Assembly: GCF_000422285.1 (NCBI RefSeq)
Contig: NZ_AULM01000013.1
Coordinates: 1-64,000, forward strand
Direction of reading: 5' to 3'
Source: Desulfatiglans anilini DSM 4660
GTDB taxonomy: Bacteria > Desulfobacterota > DSM-4660 > Desulfatiglandales > Desulfatiglandaceae
Length of the DNA stretch: 64,000 nucleotides
Within the stretch, counting starts at the first letter, position 1, and every line of letters starts with the position of its first letter. Below the pieces are notes generated by a model. It did no database searches. It saw nothing but the letters and a program-made list of their open reading frames with translations, and was not told where the DNA came from. Made by a program: the position numbers and the translations under genes. Of the stretch, positions 2,784-21,239 are shown one piece after another.

Positions 2784-3332
2784 CTAGGGGGTGTAGAGCA
2801 CCACCAGGAGTTCGGCCCGCACATCGCTCAGATTCCTGAGCTTGTGGACGATGGACGAATCGAAGTGGACGTTTTGCCCCGGGGCGAGGACATTCCGGTT
2901 CTCGCCCACCATGACCTCCACCTCTCCCTGAAGCACGTAGACGAACTCTTCACCGGGGTGCTGGTAGCTGACGCCCTTGTGCTCCGAGCGCGGATCGATG
3001 AAGATCCGGAAGGCCTTCAGGTGCTTGTGCCGAGCCTCGGGGGTCAGGTTTTCGTAGGTGTAGTCCTCCGTGCGTTTGCGGTAGTCTTCCGCTGACTGTT
3101 CGTCCGCCCGCTTCTTTTCTTCCTTCAGGAGGATGCTGGAATCGACCTCGAGGGCCTTCGAAAGCTGGAGGATCACCGCGACCGGTGGGATGACCTCCCC
3201 CTTCTCGACCTGGGAGATGTATTTGGGCGCAAGCCCCGTCTCGTTGCCGAGATGTTTGAGGGTCAGGCCTTTTTTCTTCCGCAGCGCCGCGAGGCGCTTG
3301 CTGAAAGGCTTGCTCGACTGTTCTTGCGGCAT
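2784..3332 (-). CDS. XRE-family transcriptional regulator with C-terminal cupin
   Basis: A 182-residue two-domain regulator. Residues about 10-65 form a lambda-repressor-type helix-turn-helix (start of helix region LAALRKKKGLTL, then YISQVEKG). Residues about 110-180 form a cupin fold with the HPGEEFVYVLQGEVE motif, a likely small-ligand sensor. This architecture is typical of local regulators of catabolic or redox genes. It sits 63 bp upstream of the first acyl-CoA dehydrogenase gene on the same strand and is likely co-transcribed with it, so it may control the fatty-acid block. The ligand is unknown. Confidence 0.88.
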   Translation of the reverse strand: MPQEQSSKPFSKRLAALRKKKGLTLKHLGNETGLAPKYISQVEKGEVIPPVAVILQLSKALEVDSSILLKEEKKRADEQSAEDYRKRTEDYTYENLTPEARHKHLKAFRIFIDPRSEHKGVSYQHPGEEFVYVLQGEVEVMVGENRNVLAPGQNVHFDSSIVHKLRNLSDVRAELLVVLYTP

Positions 3333-3401
3333 GGGGTTTCCCTCCCTTGAATCCGTTCACGGGTATTGAGCCGAAGGCCCCGCCACATTCGCACTAGGGC
3401 C

Positions 3402-3653
3402 TCAAACCACCGGTCCGTCCGGCCGATCTTCATTTTCGGATTTCTTGAAAGCCTTGAACATCTGAAAGACAAAGCCTGCCAGAAGGGCAAGACTGATCAG
3501 GATCATCAGGTTGGACGCAAAAAAGGTCATGACAAAGGAAAAGGGATCGTTCAAATGGTAGGCGGCGATGAGAACATAGACCCCGAAGAGGAGGAAAAAC
3601 AGCGCCGCCAATGCCATCACGCCCTGACGCAGCCACCAGAGACTTTTATGCAT
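3402..3653 (-). CDS. Small two-helix membrane protein, function unknown
   Basis: An 83-residue protein from the ATG at 3653 (MHKSLWW). It has two hydrophobic segments, about residues 10-32 and 40-65, then a charged C-terminal tail, giving an inner-membrane hairpin topology. The frame stays open upstream to a GTG at 3851, but that extension runs through a copy of the dispersed intergenic repeat and reads as basic, Arg-rich sequence, so the internal ATG is preferred. It lies between the XRE regulator and meaB on the same strand. I do not recognise a family. Confidence 0.6.
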   Translation of the reverse strand: MHKSLWWLRQGVMALAALFFLLFGVYVLIAAYHLNDPFSFVMTFFASNLMILISLALLAGFVFQMFKAFKKSENEDRPDGPVV

Positions 3654-3692
3654 GGAAGCCCTCCCCGCCCGCCCTGCGCACGCCCATTCGTT

Positions 3693-3836
3693 CCCGATCC
3701 GGAAATGAGAATTCCGGGCCGATATCGAGGCGATCAAGCTTTTGCGCGGAGGCGGCCTGTTGGCCACCGCACAGGCGAAGGTGCAGATCAACGCAAAGAT
3801 TGGGCCAAAAGACCATTTCCGGATGCAAAACAGCGA
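3693..3836 (+). repeat. Dispersed modular repeat, copy 2 (module C)
   Basis: Forward-oriented copy between the small membrane protein gene and meaB. It contains the module C inverted repeat at 3751-3768 (7-bp arms with one mismatch around TGTT), the flanking words TTTGCGCGGA and CCGCACAGGCGAA, and ends in GACCATTTCCGGATG. The same segment is far better conserved between the copies at 33.6 and 55.1 kb. Confidence 0.75.
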
Positions 3837-3868
3837 TGAAGGGGTCTTCACCCGACGGAGGGCCTCCG

Positions 3869-4828
3869 CTAGATCTGAAGGTGCGGCAGGACAAGGTCGT
3901 CACAGGCGGAATAGGGATCGAGCGACCCGTCGGCGATCCGATCCACCGCCTGGTCGAATTCGCCCGAGGCGATCAGGCGCCCGATCATCTCCTCGACCAG
4001 CCGATCCTTGATCAGCTGAGCCAGTTCCTCGCGCACATGCCTTCGTTGCTGCCGGAACCGCAGAGTCCCGCACGTCTCTTCGATGTAAGCCCGGTGCCGG
4101 TCGATCGCCTCGATCAGCTCCACCACCCCTTCGTCGAAAACCGCCTGGGCCTTGAGGATGGGGGGTTTCCAGCGGCCCTCGGCGTACTTCTTCTGGTCCA
4201 TGTCGATCATCAGCCGGAGATCCGTCATGGTCTTGTCGGCCCCGTCCCGATCGGCCTTGTTGATCAGAAAGATGTCGCCCACCTCTAGGATCCCCGCCTT
4301 GATGGCCTGGATGTCGTCTCCCATACCCGGAATCACGACGATCACCGTCGTGTGGGCGCTCTTGACTACATCCACCTCGTCCTGGCCCACACCCACCGTC
4401 TCGACGATGATGTAGTCCTTCCCCATGGCGTCCAAGACGTCGATGGCGCTGCGGGTCGATTGGGTCACGCCGCCGAAGTGCCCCCGCGTGGCGAGCGACC
4501 GGATGAAAACGCCCTTGTCCATGCTGTGGCGCTGCATCCGTACACGGTCCCCGAGGATCGCTCCGCCGCTGAAGGGGCTGGTGGGATCGACGGCCAGAAC
4601 ACCGACCGTCTTTTCCCGCTGGCGCAGGTGGCTCACCATCCGGTCGACGAGGGTGCTCTTCCCCACGCCCGGCGCGCCGGTGATGCCGATCACGTAGGCC
4701 CGGCCGGTGTAGGGGTAAAGCGCCTTGAGGATGTCCCTCACGTGCGGCATCCGGTCATCGATGTCCCGAATGAGCCGCGCTGCGGTGCGTACATCCCCGG
4801 CGATCACCTTCTCGACGATTTCATTCAT
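3869..4828 (-). CDS. meaB: MeaB/ArgK-type GTPase, acyl-CoA mutase chaperone
   Basis: G3E-family P-loop GTPase that loads adenosylcobalamin into, and protects, B12-dependent acyl-CoA mutases. At 319 residues it has the usual length. Walker A is GAPGVGKST at residues 51-59, followed by the DPTSPFSGGAILGDR segment characteristic of the family and an NKAD guanine-specificity motif. It starts 6 bp after the stop of the B12-binding subunit gene, so it is surely in the same operon. The chaperone serves either methylmalonyl-CoA or isobutyryl-CoA mutases; see the large subunit entry. Confidence 0.95.
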   Translation of the reverse strand: MNEIVEKVIAGDVRTAARLIRDIDDRMPHVRDILKALYPYTGRAYVIGITGAPGVGKSTLVDRMVSHLRQREKTVGVLAVDPTSPFSGGAILGDRVRMQRHSMDKGVFIRSLATRGHFGGVTQSTRSAIDVLDAMGKDYIIVETVGVGQDEVDVVKSAHTTVIVVIPGMGDDIQAIKAGILEVGDIFLINKADRDGADKTMTDLRLMIDMDQKKYAEGRWKPPILKAQAVFDEGVVELIEAIDRHRAYIEETCGTLRFRQQRRHVREELAQLIKDRLVEEMIGRLIASGEFDQAVDRIADGSLDPYSACDDLVLPHLQI

Positions 4829-4834
4829 CAGGCT

Positions 4835-5245
4835 TCAAACCTCCCTCGGGGTGACATGGTCCTTCACCCACTGAACAATCTGCTCGAGCGGCGAGCCGGG
4901 CGTGAAGATCTCCTTGATGCCGGCGGCCTTCATCTTCGGGATGTCGTCCTCGGGGATGATCCCGCCCCCTACGACGATGATATCGTCGATTCCGTTCTCC
5001 TTCAGCAGTTCCACGACACGGGGGAAAAGGTAGCGATGGGCCCCTGCGAGGCTCGAAAGCCCGATCATGTCCACATCCTCCTGGATAGCGGCCTCAACGA
5101 TCTCTTCGGGGCTCTGATGAAGGCCGCTGTAGACCACCTCGAAACCGGCGTCGCGATAGGCCCTCGCAATGATCCGCGCCCCCCGGTCGTGACCGTCAAG
5201 CCCCGGCTTCGCCACCATGACCCGAACCCTTCTACCGCCTGTCAT
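4835..5245 (-). CDS. B12-binding small subunit of acyl-CoA mutase
   Basis: A 136-residue stand-alone cobalamin-binding domain. The DxHxxG motif is D17-H19-G22 in GLDGHDRG, with His19 expected to replace dimethylbenzimidazole as the lower cobalt ligand. The SSL and GGG loops that cradle the nucleotide tail follow. It partners with the catalytic subunit encoded upstream at 5497-7182, giving a two-subunit mutase as in archaeal methylmalonyl-CoA mutases and IcmA/IcmB. About 250 bp of sequence with no recognisable gene separates the two subunits. Confidence 0.93.
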
Positions 5246-5496
5246 CTTGTCCTCCTCACGCTAACCTTGGAGACAAAGCGCAGCGCACCTGCAGCATCTC
5301 TTCAAGGCGCCGGCGGCCCGTCACGCCGAGCCCCGCATCCAATCAGGGTGAATTTCCCCAAACCCCCCGGCCGCGGCCGGGACACTCGCTCCGTCCTATT
5401 CACCATCCCGGGGCGGCCCCCGATCCAACCCCCGCCCCGTCTTCGACCGCACCCCTCTTTGCAGCGCCGGGGCCGGGTGCTTCGCCGCCTTCGACC

Positions 5497-7182
<1,686 letters not shown>

Positions 7183-17383: not shown

Positions 17384-18046
17384 ATGTACTACGATCCGCA
17401 AAAAGGCGACCACGGCCTGGCCTTCAACCCGTTCAAATCCTGCGTCGTGCCCCGGCCTATCGGGTGGATATCGACCCGCAGCAAGAAACGTACGGACAAC
17501 CTCGCCCCCTACAGCCAATTCCAGAACCTCACGTTCGACCCGCCGTACGTCATGATCGCCGCCAACCAGAACACGCACGGGAAGCGGAAAGACACGGTCG
17601 TGAACATCGAGGAGACCGGAGAATTCGTATACAACATGGCCACCTACGATCTGCGCGAGGCCGTCAACCGGTCTGCGGCGGAGGTTCCCCCCGACGTGGA
17701 CGAATTCGATCTGGCCGGGCTCACCAAGGCGCCGTCCCTGAAGGTGAAGCCCTTCCGGGTGGCGGAATCCCCCATCCAGTTCGAATGCGTGTACCACCAA
17801 ACCCTGAGACTGCCCGGCAGCGGACCGATCGGCACCGTCGACGTCGTGATCGGCAGGGTGGTGCTGGTGCATATCCGGGACGACGCGATCACCCCGGACG
17901 GGAAACTCGACGTCCTCAAAATCCGCCCCCTGGCGCGCCTCGGCTATTATGACTACACCACGGTGGACTCCCTCTTCGAAATGGTCATTCCGGGCGAAAA
18001 CGAGCTGCTGCTGACGGGCCTGGAAGGGGCGCCCGGCAGAAAATAA
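17384..18046 (+). CDS. Flavin reductase family protein
   Basis: A 220-residue FMN-binding split-barrel protein of the flavin reductase (DIM6/NTAB-like) family. Typical features are the N-terminal SCVVPRPIGWIST strand-turn, NLAPYSQF, and the EFVYNMA segment. These bind FMN and use NAD(P)H, or serve as flavin-containing oxidoreductases. The ATG follows GGGAGGGAG closely. The next gene, with an in-frame TGA, starts 20 bp downstream with its own ribosome site and is probably co-transcribed. Two copies of an operator-like palindrome lie upstream. Confidence 0.9.
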   Translation: MYYDPQKGDHGLAFNPFKSCVVPRPIGWISTRSKKRTDNLAPYSQFQNLTFDPPYVMIAANQNTHGKRKDTVVNIEETGEFVYNMATYDLREAVNRSAAEVPPDVDEFDLAGLTKAPSLKVKPFRVAESPIQFECVYHQTLRLPGSGPIGTVDVVIGRVVLVHIRDDAITPDGKLDVLKIRPLARLGYYDYTTVDSLFEMVIPGENELLLTGLEGAPGRK

Positions 18047-18066
18047 TACGCGGGCGAGGAATTCAA

Positions 18067-18531
18067 ATGGGAGAAGAAGCGGTTTTGGTCGCTATCGGCT
18101 GCGGCCGTCTGCCAAGGATACTCGATCTTGCCGCGCGGCGATCTTTTGTCGTTTTTGGAGCGCTAGGGGAAGAGGTCGCCGCCGGCCTCGCTGCGCACAC
18201 CGGGGGCGGCACACCGGCGGCTCTGCCGGTCTACTTCTACGAAACCGGGTGAATCATCCCGCGGCGGGTGGTTGCGGTCGGCAACCTGGACAGGATCTGG
18301 CCGGCTTTTCTGGAGGATGTTGCGGATGAGGCCTGGGAAACAGCCTTTCGAGGCCGTTTCGGGGCGGCATGGACCGACGTCCTCGACGCAGCCGACCCCT
18401 CCTTGAGCTACAACGCATCGAGCGACGTCTATTTCTCCGTGCGGGATGCCCACAGGGTGGAGGATCTGACCGTTGAGCAGTTGCTGGAAAAAGAAGCGGC
18501 CGGCAGGCCGCTCGATATCATCGTCAGCTGA
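18067..18531 (+). CDS. Unrecognised protein with one in-frame TGA: candidate selenoprotein
   Basis: A GAGGA ribosome site 6 bp before the ATG at 18067 opens a frame interrupted once, by TGA at 18250-18252, and then open to TGA at 18529-18531. Read through, it gives 154 residues with the special residue at position 62 in the context YETG-U-IIPRR. Codon use looks protein-like on both sides, and the second half lacks its own convincing start or ribosome site. A hairpin with a GGTCG loop lies 24 nt past the TGA, in the position and style of a bacterial SECIS element. I do not recognise the family. The alternative is a recent nonsense mutation or sequencing error. Confidence 0.6.
18250..18286 (+). 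promoter_or_regulatory. Candidate bacterial SECIS element
   Basis: After the in-frame TGA (18250-18252) comes a perfect 6-bp stem: GGTTGC (18270-18275) pairs with GCAACC (18281-18286) around the loop GGTCG. The first loop G is the 24th base after TGA. Known bacterial SECIS elements have a G or GU in the apical loop some 16-37 nt past the UGA, and the E. coli fdhF element also uses a GGUUGC arm and a GGUC loop. SelB and selC are not in this window. Confidence 0.55.
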
Positions 18532-18667
18532 TGTTTCGTGATCGCTCGAAGGCCGGTCCTTTCCGATGCCCATGCGGACTGTACGATTGGGGAACCGGGG
18601 GCTTTGACAAAGGGCTTTTTGAAGGGGGTGCGATAGATAGGGGGCGTCGAGCATTCGAGCGGGAGAC

Positions 18668-18702
18668 AAAAAAGCTGCGCCCGGGCCCTTCGACCCGGGT
18701 GC
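18668..18702 (-). terminator. Predicted rho-independent terminator of the histidine kinase gene
   Basis: Reading leftward from just past the kinase stop: CCCGGG arm, loop TCGAAGGG, CCCGGG arm, then AGC followed by six T residues (18673-18668). The stem has 6 GC pairs plus two more beyond a mismatch. Confidence 0.5.
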
Positions 18703-18709
18703 TCGGATG

Positions 18710-21061
18710 TCAGGGTGCGGGGGGAAAGTGCAGGATAAAAACGGTCCCTCCCGAGTTGAAGCAGTCTTCCGGGGAGTCGCAGCAGGCGCAGTCGCTGATG
18801 CGGCTGGGGCAGATGTCGTCCTCCTTGGGGATGAAACGGCACCGTGTCGATTCCATTTCGATCCGGAAGTGGTAGCGTTCGGAGAAGATCTTCATGCGGA
18901 GAAGGTCTGCGCCCTTGCCGCCCGCATTGAAGTCGAAGGGCCGCTTGGACGAGTAGGCCATGGTATCGCGGGTGGTGAAAAACCCCTCGAAGATCCGCCG
19001 CTGGTGGTCGGGGGTAATCCCGACCCCGTAGTCCCTGACCCGCAGGAGGGCCCCGGTGCCCTCTTTCTTGACTGCAATCTCGATCTTCCCCTCGTTGGGG
19101 GTGTTCTCGACGGCGTTCTTCACCAAACCGTCGAAGATCTTCTGGATGGCCTCGACCGGGATCAGAATCGGGGGGACAGGCTCCACCTCCAGGAATAGTT
19201 CCACCTCCCTGGTGGGGAATTCGGCCTGCAGCACGGGCAGCCGCTCACTCACGAAGTCGTGCAGCAGAACCTTGCGGGCCACCATCTCCCGGGGCGAGAA
19301 GAGCTCCTCGATTCGCCGCCGCACCAGGGCGATGCCCGACGCCTCACCGACCATCTCCGCCAGGAGGGTCTCCAGTTCGTCCGTGCACTGCTCCACCAGC
19401 AGATTCATCATGGCGTAGATCTCGTGCGTCCGCCCCTGCATGATGTCGTCGACCTCGTCCTCGATCTCGGTGATCCGGTCGAGGTTCCTTCGCGCACGCG
19501 CCATCGTCGTTTTCCAATTCTGCTCCGGCAGCTCCTCAAGCCTCCTCTCGAGGACGTTCAGAGAACCTGAAAGAACGGAGATCGGCGTCTTGAGTTCATG
19601 GCTCAGATGGTTGATGACCTTGTCCTTCGCGCGGTTGAGGCTGCTGACCTCCCGGTACGCACGCTTCAGCTCCTCGGAAAACCGCGCGTTTTCGATCGAG
19701 AGGACGACCGTGCCCGCGATCATGCTGAGGAGGGCTTCGTCCGTCTCATCGAAATTCCCCTCGAACTTGTTGATGGCGCAAAGCGACCCGATGATGCGGT
19801 CGAAGCTTCGGAGGGGCACCAGCACCAGGTTGCGGGTGTGGTATCCGAGCTTCTTGTCCCGCTCCCGATGCAGTGAGGGGTCGACCGAGGTGTCGGTGAC
19901 GATCATGGGCTCCCCGGTCTGGATGACCTTTCCCGCCACGAGCTGGTCCATCCCCCAGCGGATCTCCTTCACGCGGCGCTCTGTGGCGGTGTCGTCGTAG
20001 GCCCCGCCGAGGGCGTAAAGCTCCTTTTTCTCCTCGTCGTGCAGGATGATAAGCGCACCTTCGCTTCCCAGAAGGTGCCGCACCTCCTCGCTGATATAGT
20101 CCAGTAGTTCCTCGAGATCCGGGTACTCCGGCAGGGCTACGCTGATGCGGTGCAGAATCTCGTTGTTGCGCGCGAGCCGCTTCTCGTTCGTGATATCCCT
20201 GAGGATCACCAGTTCCCCGGCCGGCTCGCCCTCGTCATCCAGAAAAACGACCCCGCGCATGACGACATCGAGCGTACGCCCGTCCCGCGTTCGGCGCTTG
20301 GTTTCGTGGCGGAGTACCAGACGCGTCCGGATCAGTTCCTGGAGTTTTTCGCTGGTCTCCTTTTCGAGCCCCTCCGGGACGTAGGGGATGCGCTGGCCCT
20401 TCAATTCCTGAAAGGTCCAGCCGAAGGTCTCGGTAAACGCGGCATTGGCATAGGTGACCTTGCCTTCGAGCGAAAAGGCCACCATGGGGTAGGGCACAAA
20501 ATCCAGCAGCGTCCGGTAGCGCCGCTCCGAATTGCGGACCACCTCCTCCGCCCGCTTCCGGTCGGTCATATCCTGCAGGGTCTCCACCGCTCCGATCACC
20601 TCGCGGTGCTGGCCATACAGGGGCGCCGCTGTAAAAAAGAGCCAGCGGCCCTTTTGCCCGAGGGCCTGGAAAAACCCCTCCGCTTCGTACGCCCCCTCGA
20701 TGACGTTCGAACGACGGCACCGCTTCCCGTAAAGGCGGACGATCTCCTCTCCGGGCGCCTGATCGACGATGAAGTCGGCGAGCACCGGCCGCTCCTCGGA
20801 GTAGAAGGCCGACCACTGACGGCGCGTCCCGAGGATATCCTCCGCATTCACCCCGGTTAGATTCTCGCAGGCACGGTTGTAGTGCGTGACGCAATGGTTC
20901 TTGTCGATCACGAAGGTGGGGATGGGACTGCCTTGGATGATCTGGGAGAGAAGCTGTTCGCTGTCGCGAAGCGCGTTTTCCGCCTCCGAACGCCTTGCGG
21001 CCTCCATTTCCAGTGTCTTGACCCGTTCTACCAACTGCTCATGGGTGGAGCTCTCAGCCAT
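18710..21061 (-). CDS. PAS-PAS-GAF sensor histidine kinase with C-terminal cysteine cluster
   Basis: A soluble 783-residue sensor kinase from the ATG at 21061 behind AGGAGAG. Order: short coiled coil (5-35), PAS (about 35-160), PAS (about 175-295), GAF (about 305-460), HisKA with phospho-acceptor H488 in SHELKTP, then HATPase with N649 in the N box and DYGVG in the G1 box. Between the G2 box (GGKGADL) and the final strand is an insertion with Cys at 751, 758, 760, 761 and 767, suggesting metal or redox sensing. No transmembrane helix and no adjacent response regulator are seen. Confidence 0.92.
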   Translation of the reverse strand: MAESSTHEQLVERVKTLEMEAARRSEAENALRDSEQLLSQIIQGSPIPTFVIDKNHCVTHYNRACENLTGVNAEDILGTRRQWSAFYSEERPVLADFIVDQAPGEEIVRLYGKRCRRSNVIEGAYEAEGFFQALGQKGRWLFFTAAPLYGQHREVIGAVETLQDMTDRKRAEEVVRNSERRYRTLLDFVPYPMVAFSLEGKVTYANAAFTETFGWTFQELKGQRIPYVPEGLEKETSEKLQELIRTRLVLRHETKRRTRDGRTLDVVMRGVVFLDDEGEPAGELVILRDITNEKRLARNNEILHRISVALPEYPDLEELLDYISEEVRHLLGSEGALIILHDEEKKELYALGGAYDDTATERRVKEIRWGMDQLVAGKVIQTGEPMIVTDTSVDPSLHRERDKKLGYHTRNLVLVPLRSFDRIIGSLCAINKFEGNFDETDEALLSMIAGTVVLSIENARFSEELKRAYREVSSLNRAKDKVINHLSHELKTPISVLSGSLNVLERRLEELPEQNWKTTMARARRNLDRITEIEDEVDDIMQGRTHEIYAMMNLLVEQCTDELETLLAEMVGEASGIALVRRRIEELFSPREMVARKVLLHDFVSERLPVLQAEFPTREVELFLEVEPVPPILIPVEAIQKIFDGLVKNAVENTPNEGKIEIAVKKEGTGALLRVRDYGVGITPDHQRRIFEGFFTTRDTMAYSSKRPFDFNAGGKGADLLRMKIFSERYHFRIEMESTRCRFIPKEDDICPSRISDCACCDSPEDCFNSGGTVFILHFPPAP

Positions 21062-21239
21062 GTGATTCTCTCCTAACATCAGGGGAACTTGGCGAGCCGT
21101 CCGTTCCCGTTCATACATGGACGTTGAAGACCAAAAGCAAAGGCGCTTGAGCTGCAGGTGGGTCCTTCCCTTTTACACCATGATGCGCCTTCAAGGCAAT
21201 CACCTTCCTCGGGCATCATCTCACACGCATCTCCTCCAT

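Follow-up and report, generated by a model that had tools for sequence, protein, structure and literature searches.

In bacterial SelB/SECIS systems, of which E. coli FdhF is the type, an in-frame UGA is followed at a distance of 16-37 nt by a hairpin with a G or GU in its loop. Many prokaryotic selenoproteins are annotated simply as hypothetical protein. A 2026 catalogue lists 119 prokaryotic selenoprotein families (PMC13188914), and the hypothetical families among them mostly have NCBIfam models. The authors of deep-Sep caution that their own method may miss selenoproteins that lack cysteine (Cys) homologues (PMC12013277), a caveat that fits a family in which nearly all members carry selenocysteine (Sec) and hardly any carry Cys. 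Here we describe a candidate for such a family, identified from a gene in a 64,000-nucleotide stretch of the Desulfatiglans anilini DSM 4660 genome (contig NZ_AULM01000013.1, positions 1 to 64,000; hereafter the window). Comparative sequence evidence indicates that this gene very probably encodes a selenoprotein in which UGA-62 has been kept as a sense position and is followed by a SECIS-type hairpin.

The locus and its reading frame

The features of the locus, in window coordinates, are as follows.

17384-18046, + strand: neighbour outside the feature, PF01613 flavin reductase-like protein, 20 nt upstream (E 1.2e-21)
18053-18061, + strand: Shine-Dalgarno-like GAGGAA 5' of the ATG, read from the sequence
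18067-18531, + strand: predicted selenoprotein gene, 154 codons plus a TGA stop, with TGA-62 as Sec; homologues have one in-frame TGA, in one column
18250-18252, + strand: in-frame TGA, predicted Sec codon, residue 62; TGA in 43/43 aligned Sec members, TGC (Cys) in L044
18270-18286, + strand: candidate bacterial SECIS element (bSECIS), stem GGTTGC 18270-18275 / GCAACC 18281-18286, loop GGTCG 18276-18280; assessed by the published model, covariation and a synonymous-codon null
18529-18531, + strand: true stop TGA of the predicted selenoprotein gene, an internal control; no stable hairpin 3' of it
18710-21118, - strand: neighbour outside the feature, convergent PAS sensor histidine kinase, 95.5% identical in sister genome G001

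The first-pass annotation of this DNA had described a 154-codon frame split by one TGA, and this is what we find: the frame opens at ATG 18067, with GAGG just 5' of it, and continues to the stop at 18529-18531, the read-through frame itself (18067-18528, 154 codons) having homologues. The second half was correctly said to lack a convincing start, GTG at 18268, beside the hairpin, being its sole possible start. The hairpin is likewise as claimed, with a 6-bp stem, loop GGTCG and first loop G at +24 from the TGA. The best hairpin after the true stop has an energy of +0.7 kcal/mol, and other family members terminate in TAA, TAG or TGA.

Distribution of the family and conservation of the TGA column

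At least 55 sampled genomes carry the family, drawn from deltaproteobacterial relatives, Nitrospirota MAGs and Bacillota, to which the isolate Desulfofundulus thermobenzoicus DSM 14055 belongs; the total of 55 is the sum of 46 and 9, leaving out L031, L033 and L034, whose genomes are already within the 46. Five genomes matched among 61 (the window's own and 60 relatives), each with a single in-frame TGA, its codon position shared by all five, while profile searches matched 6 of 85 genomes in the order/class set and 3/395 in the phylum sample. A Bacillota sample yielded 8/398 matched genomes, and in one Bacillota class 46/113 sampled genomes carry the family, with further matches in named MAGs of Nitrospirota, Deltaproteobacteria and Bacillota. 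The family is common in one Bacillota class and occurs sporadically in other phyla. A single-sequence search of genome_contigs and a profile search of viral contigs found no relatives.

Each full-length best match, with the exception of the Cys form, contains exactly one in-frame TGA. This TGA occupies an identical column in all 43 TGA copies that were placed in a codon alignment, down to ~20-30% identity; column position was checked in these 43, and some 12 further genomes were counted for the presence of one in-frame TGA. Among 46 aligned copies, residue 62 is TGA in 43, Cys in one, Ile in one and Ala in one, and neither TAA nor TAG occurs at this column. The homologue alignment proposed at the outset as a check on the Sec assignment therefore returned Cys or TGA at residue 62 in 44/46 copies, both exceptions being diverged paralogues. 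The sole Cys homologue found is L044 (genome G1111, Nitrospirota sample), which has TGC at the Sec column, and the Sec/Cys pairing consequently rests on one sequence plus many TGA copies. In a 20-member alignment the invariant positions are Sec/Cys62, A70, G72, W102 and V125.

Several genomes hold a second copy. The diverged copies with Ile or Ala in place of Sec are L075 (G1166:C1:280551-280991; Ile) and L077 (G465:C21:2977-3420; Ala), and both genomes keep a TGA copy. L025 (G075:C171:36480-36647) is the remnant of another second copy, reduced to its C-terminal third and ~21 kb from an intact TGA copy.

In most pairs dN/dS is low and differs little between the segments before and after the TGA, with respective values of 0.31 and 0.34 (window versus L002), 0.27 and 0.27 (L026 versus L027), and 0.13 and 0.11 (G1161 versus L042), from which it follows that the segment 3' of the TGA is a translated portion of the same protein. 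A lone TGA in an otherwise open frame looks like a mutation, but the idea that a nonsense mutation or a sequencing error has split an ordinary gene, or that the gene is a pseudogene, has next to no probability here and is ruled out by independent homologues: the same TGA recurs in at least 55 genomes of several phyla, its column was confirmed for 43 copies, and the segments before and after it are under purifying selection. Its presence in independent genomes also settles the earlier concern over a sequencing error at TGA-62.

In part of the family the context of the codon differs. CTPT-U replaces YETG-U in L041, L042, L044, G1161, G1162 and G1166, with G1166 and L044 reading CAPT-U or CAPT-C within this subclade. 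A branch with 100/100 support separates the CTPT-U clade from the other members, and the clade has a Cys four residues before the Sec. Elsewhere in the protein, Cys12 is found in 23/45 copies. Given these distributions the family has no universal resolving Cys; for some members, the resolving partner of Sec may be Cys12 or the Cys at -4.

The SECIS-type hairpin

The window hairpin, with 6 bp, a GGTCG loop, 23 nt between TGA and loop and an energy of -8.6 kcal/mol, fits the published bacterial SECIS model, whose constraints were used for scoring (PMC13188914). Hairpins satisfying these constraints follow 154/1771 (~9%) of the TGA triplets on both strands of this GC-rich window, and when the window sequence alone is compared with synonymous shuffles, its pairing is borderline, at P 0.06 for the number of pairs and 0.009 for energy. 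Taken singly, the window hairpin is therefore weak evidence for a SECIS; it is conservation across the family that places the element far beyond chance.

In 38 members the hairpin reads [N]GTTGCC-GTN-GGCAAC[N] or departs from this with its pairing kept; its loop lies 24 nt from the TGA in most and 23 nt in the window. Of its alignment cells 96.2% are paired, and four of the seven pairs have changed on both sides, as in the stems AACTGCC-GTG-GGCAGTT (L033), CCTCGCC-GGG-GGCGAGG (L040) and GCAGCC-GTG-GGCTGC (G1255). Double-sided changes number 16 against 3.2 in shuffles, and the covariation score exceeds those of 500/500 shuffles and of all slid versions. The stretch that forms the hairpin also encodes the conserved VVAVGNL, for which reason we used a null in which synonymous codons are randomised and the protein is held fixed. 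Under this null 4.17 +/- 0.15 of 7 pairs are expected and 6.53 are observed (z 15.3; energy z -19). Few positions of the stretch vary as much as the third base of the loop codon GTN, while the stem codons retain their third bases. Scored with ungapped stems, 29/43 Sec members meet all SECIS criteria, and 14/43 hairpins fall short of the -7.5 kcal/mol guideline. Rfam searches of the locus gave chance-level matches only.

The five Sec members of the CTPT-U clade have a 6-bp hairpin ~6 nt further upstream, with loops GGTA, GGTC, GGTC, GGTT and CGTG and a z of 4.3 against the synonymous null (five sequences). The same kind of element in another register argues for function and against a by-product of protein sequence.

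Selenocysteine machinery and the probable decoding of UGA-62

The first-pass annotation had named the genes of the Sec machinery as a check. Both of those sought are in the genome: tRNA-Sec (selC) at 71.7 bits against a cut-off of 47, with anticodon TCA, and SelB at 387.5 bits against a cut-off of 242. The selenium cofactor gene yqeC adjoins selB, and a gene resembling cysteine desulfurase or Sec-lyase lies near selC. Among 19 Sec-carrying genomes checked, 17 have SelB above cut-off. No such match was found in the draft assemblies G037 and G466, the second of which carries a SelB-like fragment where a contig ends. In G1111, the genome with the Cys form, no SelB match exceeded the cut-off.

A hairpin 3' of a stop codon can stimulate read-through. 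UGA-62 could on this basis be read by a near-cognate tRNA or serve as a regulated stop, with the hairpin acting as a read-through or attenuation signal and not as a SECIS, an explanation that draws on the comparative nature of the Sec reading and that we consider very improbable. Against it, TAA and TAG never occur at the column and the sole substituted homologue outside the paralogues has Cys; SelB is almost always present in carriers; and the loop G, the stem and the 17-24 nt spacing of the family hairpins match the bacterial SECIS model. Column conservation, the hairpin, selB and tRNA-Sec together strongly support the original proposal that residue 62 (in YETG-U-IIPRR) is selenocysteine. 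If decoding follows the established biology, a ribosome arriving at UGA-62 would receive Sec-tRNA-Sec from hairpin-bound SelB; insertion of Sec would give the complete 154-residue protein, and translation without insertion would give a 61-residue fragment.

Genomic context

A link to the flavin reductase, hinted at when the gene was first noticed, did not survive comparison, as the reductase adjoins the gene in the window genome alone. The reductase was rejected as an operon partner: a 497-aa HATPase protein separates it from the selenoprotein gene in the sister genome, G001, neighbours differ elsewhere, and comparison of the genome contexts of homologues revealed no conservation of the flavin-reductase neighbourhood beyond the genus. 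In six Bacillota genomes, a PF03692 CxxCxxCC protein (~277 aa, 48-85% mutual identity) lies beside the selenoprotein gene in the same orientation (L081, L082, L083, L092, L088 and L090), downstream of it in four and upstream in two. As neighbours vary among genomes, no conserved partner accounts for function.

Comparison of window positions 18054-18713 with L094 of G001 (3141-5639) gives flanks of 91-93% DNA identity, whereas the block containing the selenoprotein gene shares just 73% DNA and 60% protein identity. The extra 497-aa HATPase gene of G001 sits within this low-identity block. Such an island of divergence around the window gene suggests replacement by recombination or transfer.

Apparent novelty of the family

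The family had not been recognised from the sequence, and it matches no catalogued family in Pfam, NCBIfam or the table of PMC13188914. At E 0.01, none of 20 members matched any NCBIfam model (June 2026), including those of the catalogue's hypothetical families; in Pfam the same 20 gave one chance-level match only (E 0.08). Neither an ASCH, EVE or PUA-like domain nor a motif similar to YETGU or CTPTU appears in the PMC13188914 table. Judged by listed domains and motifs and by model matches, the family appears to be uncatalogued. It probably escaped searches based on Cys homology because almost all of its members carry Sec and hardly any carry Cys.

It might instead be a selenoprotein family already known by a different name, from literature or databases beyond those searched. 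Many prokaryotic selenoproteins bear the name hypothetical protein, and our search covered open-access journal papers and curated database entries, for which reason we allow prior description a small chance. The lack of an NCBIfam match, a Pfam match at E 0.08 only and the lack of a similar entry among the 119 families of the table all weigh against it. If the family is indeed uncatalogued, it is one carried by 46/113 genomes of one Bacillota class and yet without a Pfam or NCBIfam model; its genes are probably annotated as the 61-residue fragment or left unannotated, and the family offers a ready model for genome annotation.

Fold and possible function

AlphaFold modelled the window protein with low confidence (pLDDT 57.5), and its model of the Desulfofundulus member is unusable (pLDDT 44.4). 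With the low-confidence window model, the top Foldseek match is ZmASCH (E 2e-4, probability 1.00, across the domain), and the VIA list for the same model consists nearly entirely of ASCH, EVE/DUF55, YTH, TRIP4, YqfB and McrB-N structures with Z up to 7.2, this highest value extending over 112 residues. Family members match neither the ASCH nor the EVE profile of Pfam, hhalign against one EVE protein gives nothing (probability 0.1%), and a sequence-profile search of the PDB returned nothing meaningful. From the structural model, a PUA-like fold of the ASCH/EVE/YTH type is likely for the window protein, though by a modest margin of confidence.

A quite credible alternative leaves the selenoprotein standing and takes its domain not to be PUA-like, the fold match having come from a weak model and the protein being a redox protein of another fold. 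This would agree with the pLDDT values of 57.5 and 44.4, with a Z of 7.2 that lies within the range usual for unrelated matches, and with the lack of any profile match to PUA-like families, but sits less easily with top ranks that belong nearly all to one superfamily and with a Foldseek match of E 2e-4 and probability 1.00 over the whole domain.

On a PUA-like fold, the Sec would lie in the loop between strands VYFYETG and RRVVAVG, at the presumed ligand pocket. We tentatively suggest, from this model, that a selenolate there could act on a nucleic-acid or base ligand, either as nucleophile or as redox group. The fullest reading, a Sec-dependent enzyme or sensor built on a PUA-like fold that binds nucleic acid or modified bases, with Sec nearly obligatory and outside the catalogue searched, is more doubtful still. 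Were the fold right, it would place selenium chemistry on a nucleic-acid-binding domain.

Comparison with known systems

The family shows no Pfam or hhalign similarity to ASCH and EVE proteins, although the low-confidence model of the window protein resembles ASCH proteins (the ribonuclease ZmASCH and the ac4C amidohydrolase YqfB), EVE and YTH in its predicted order of strands and helices and in overall fold. Hypothetical selenoprotein families already catalogued (OS_HP, GOS_B/C, DG, DW, DF) differ from it in their listed motifs, and its members match no NCBIfam model, yet it resembles them in small size, a label without function and an origin in comparative genomics. From the bacterial SelB/SECIS selenoproteins typified by FdhF it differs in being an unrelated protein, a small stand-alone domain with almost no Cys homologues; it lacks a UxxC, CxxU or UHxP motif, and most members have no Cys near the Sec. 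With these systems it nevertheless shares the in-frame UGA followed by a G/GU-loop hairpin within the 16-37 nt range, selB and selC in the genome, and the existence of a Cys homologue.
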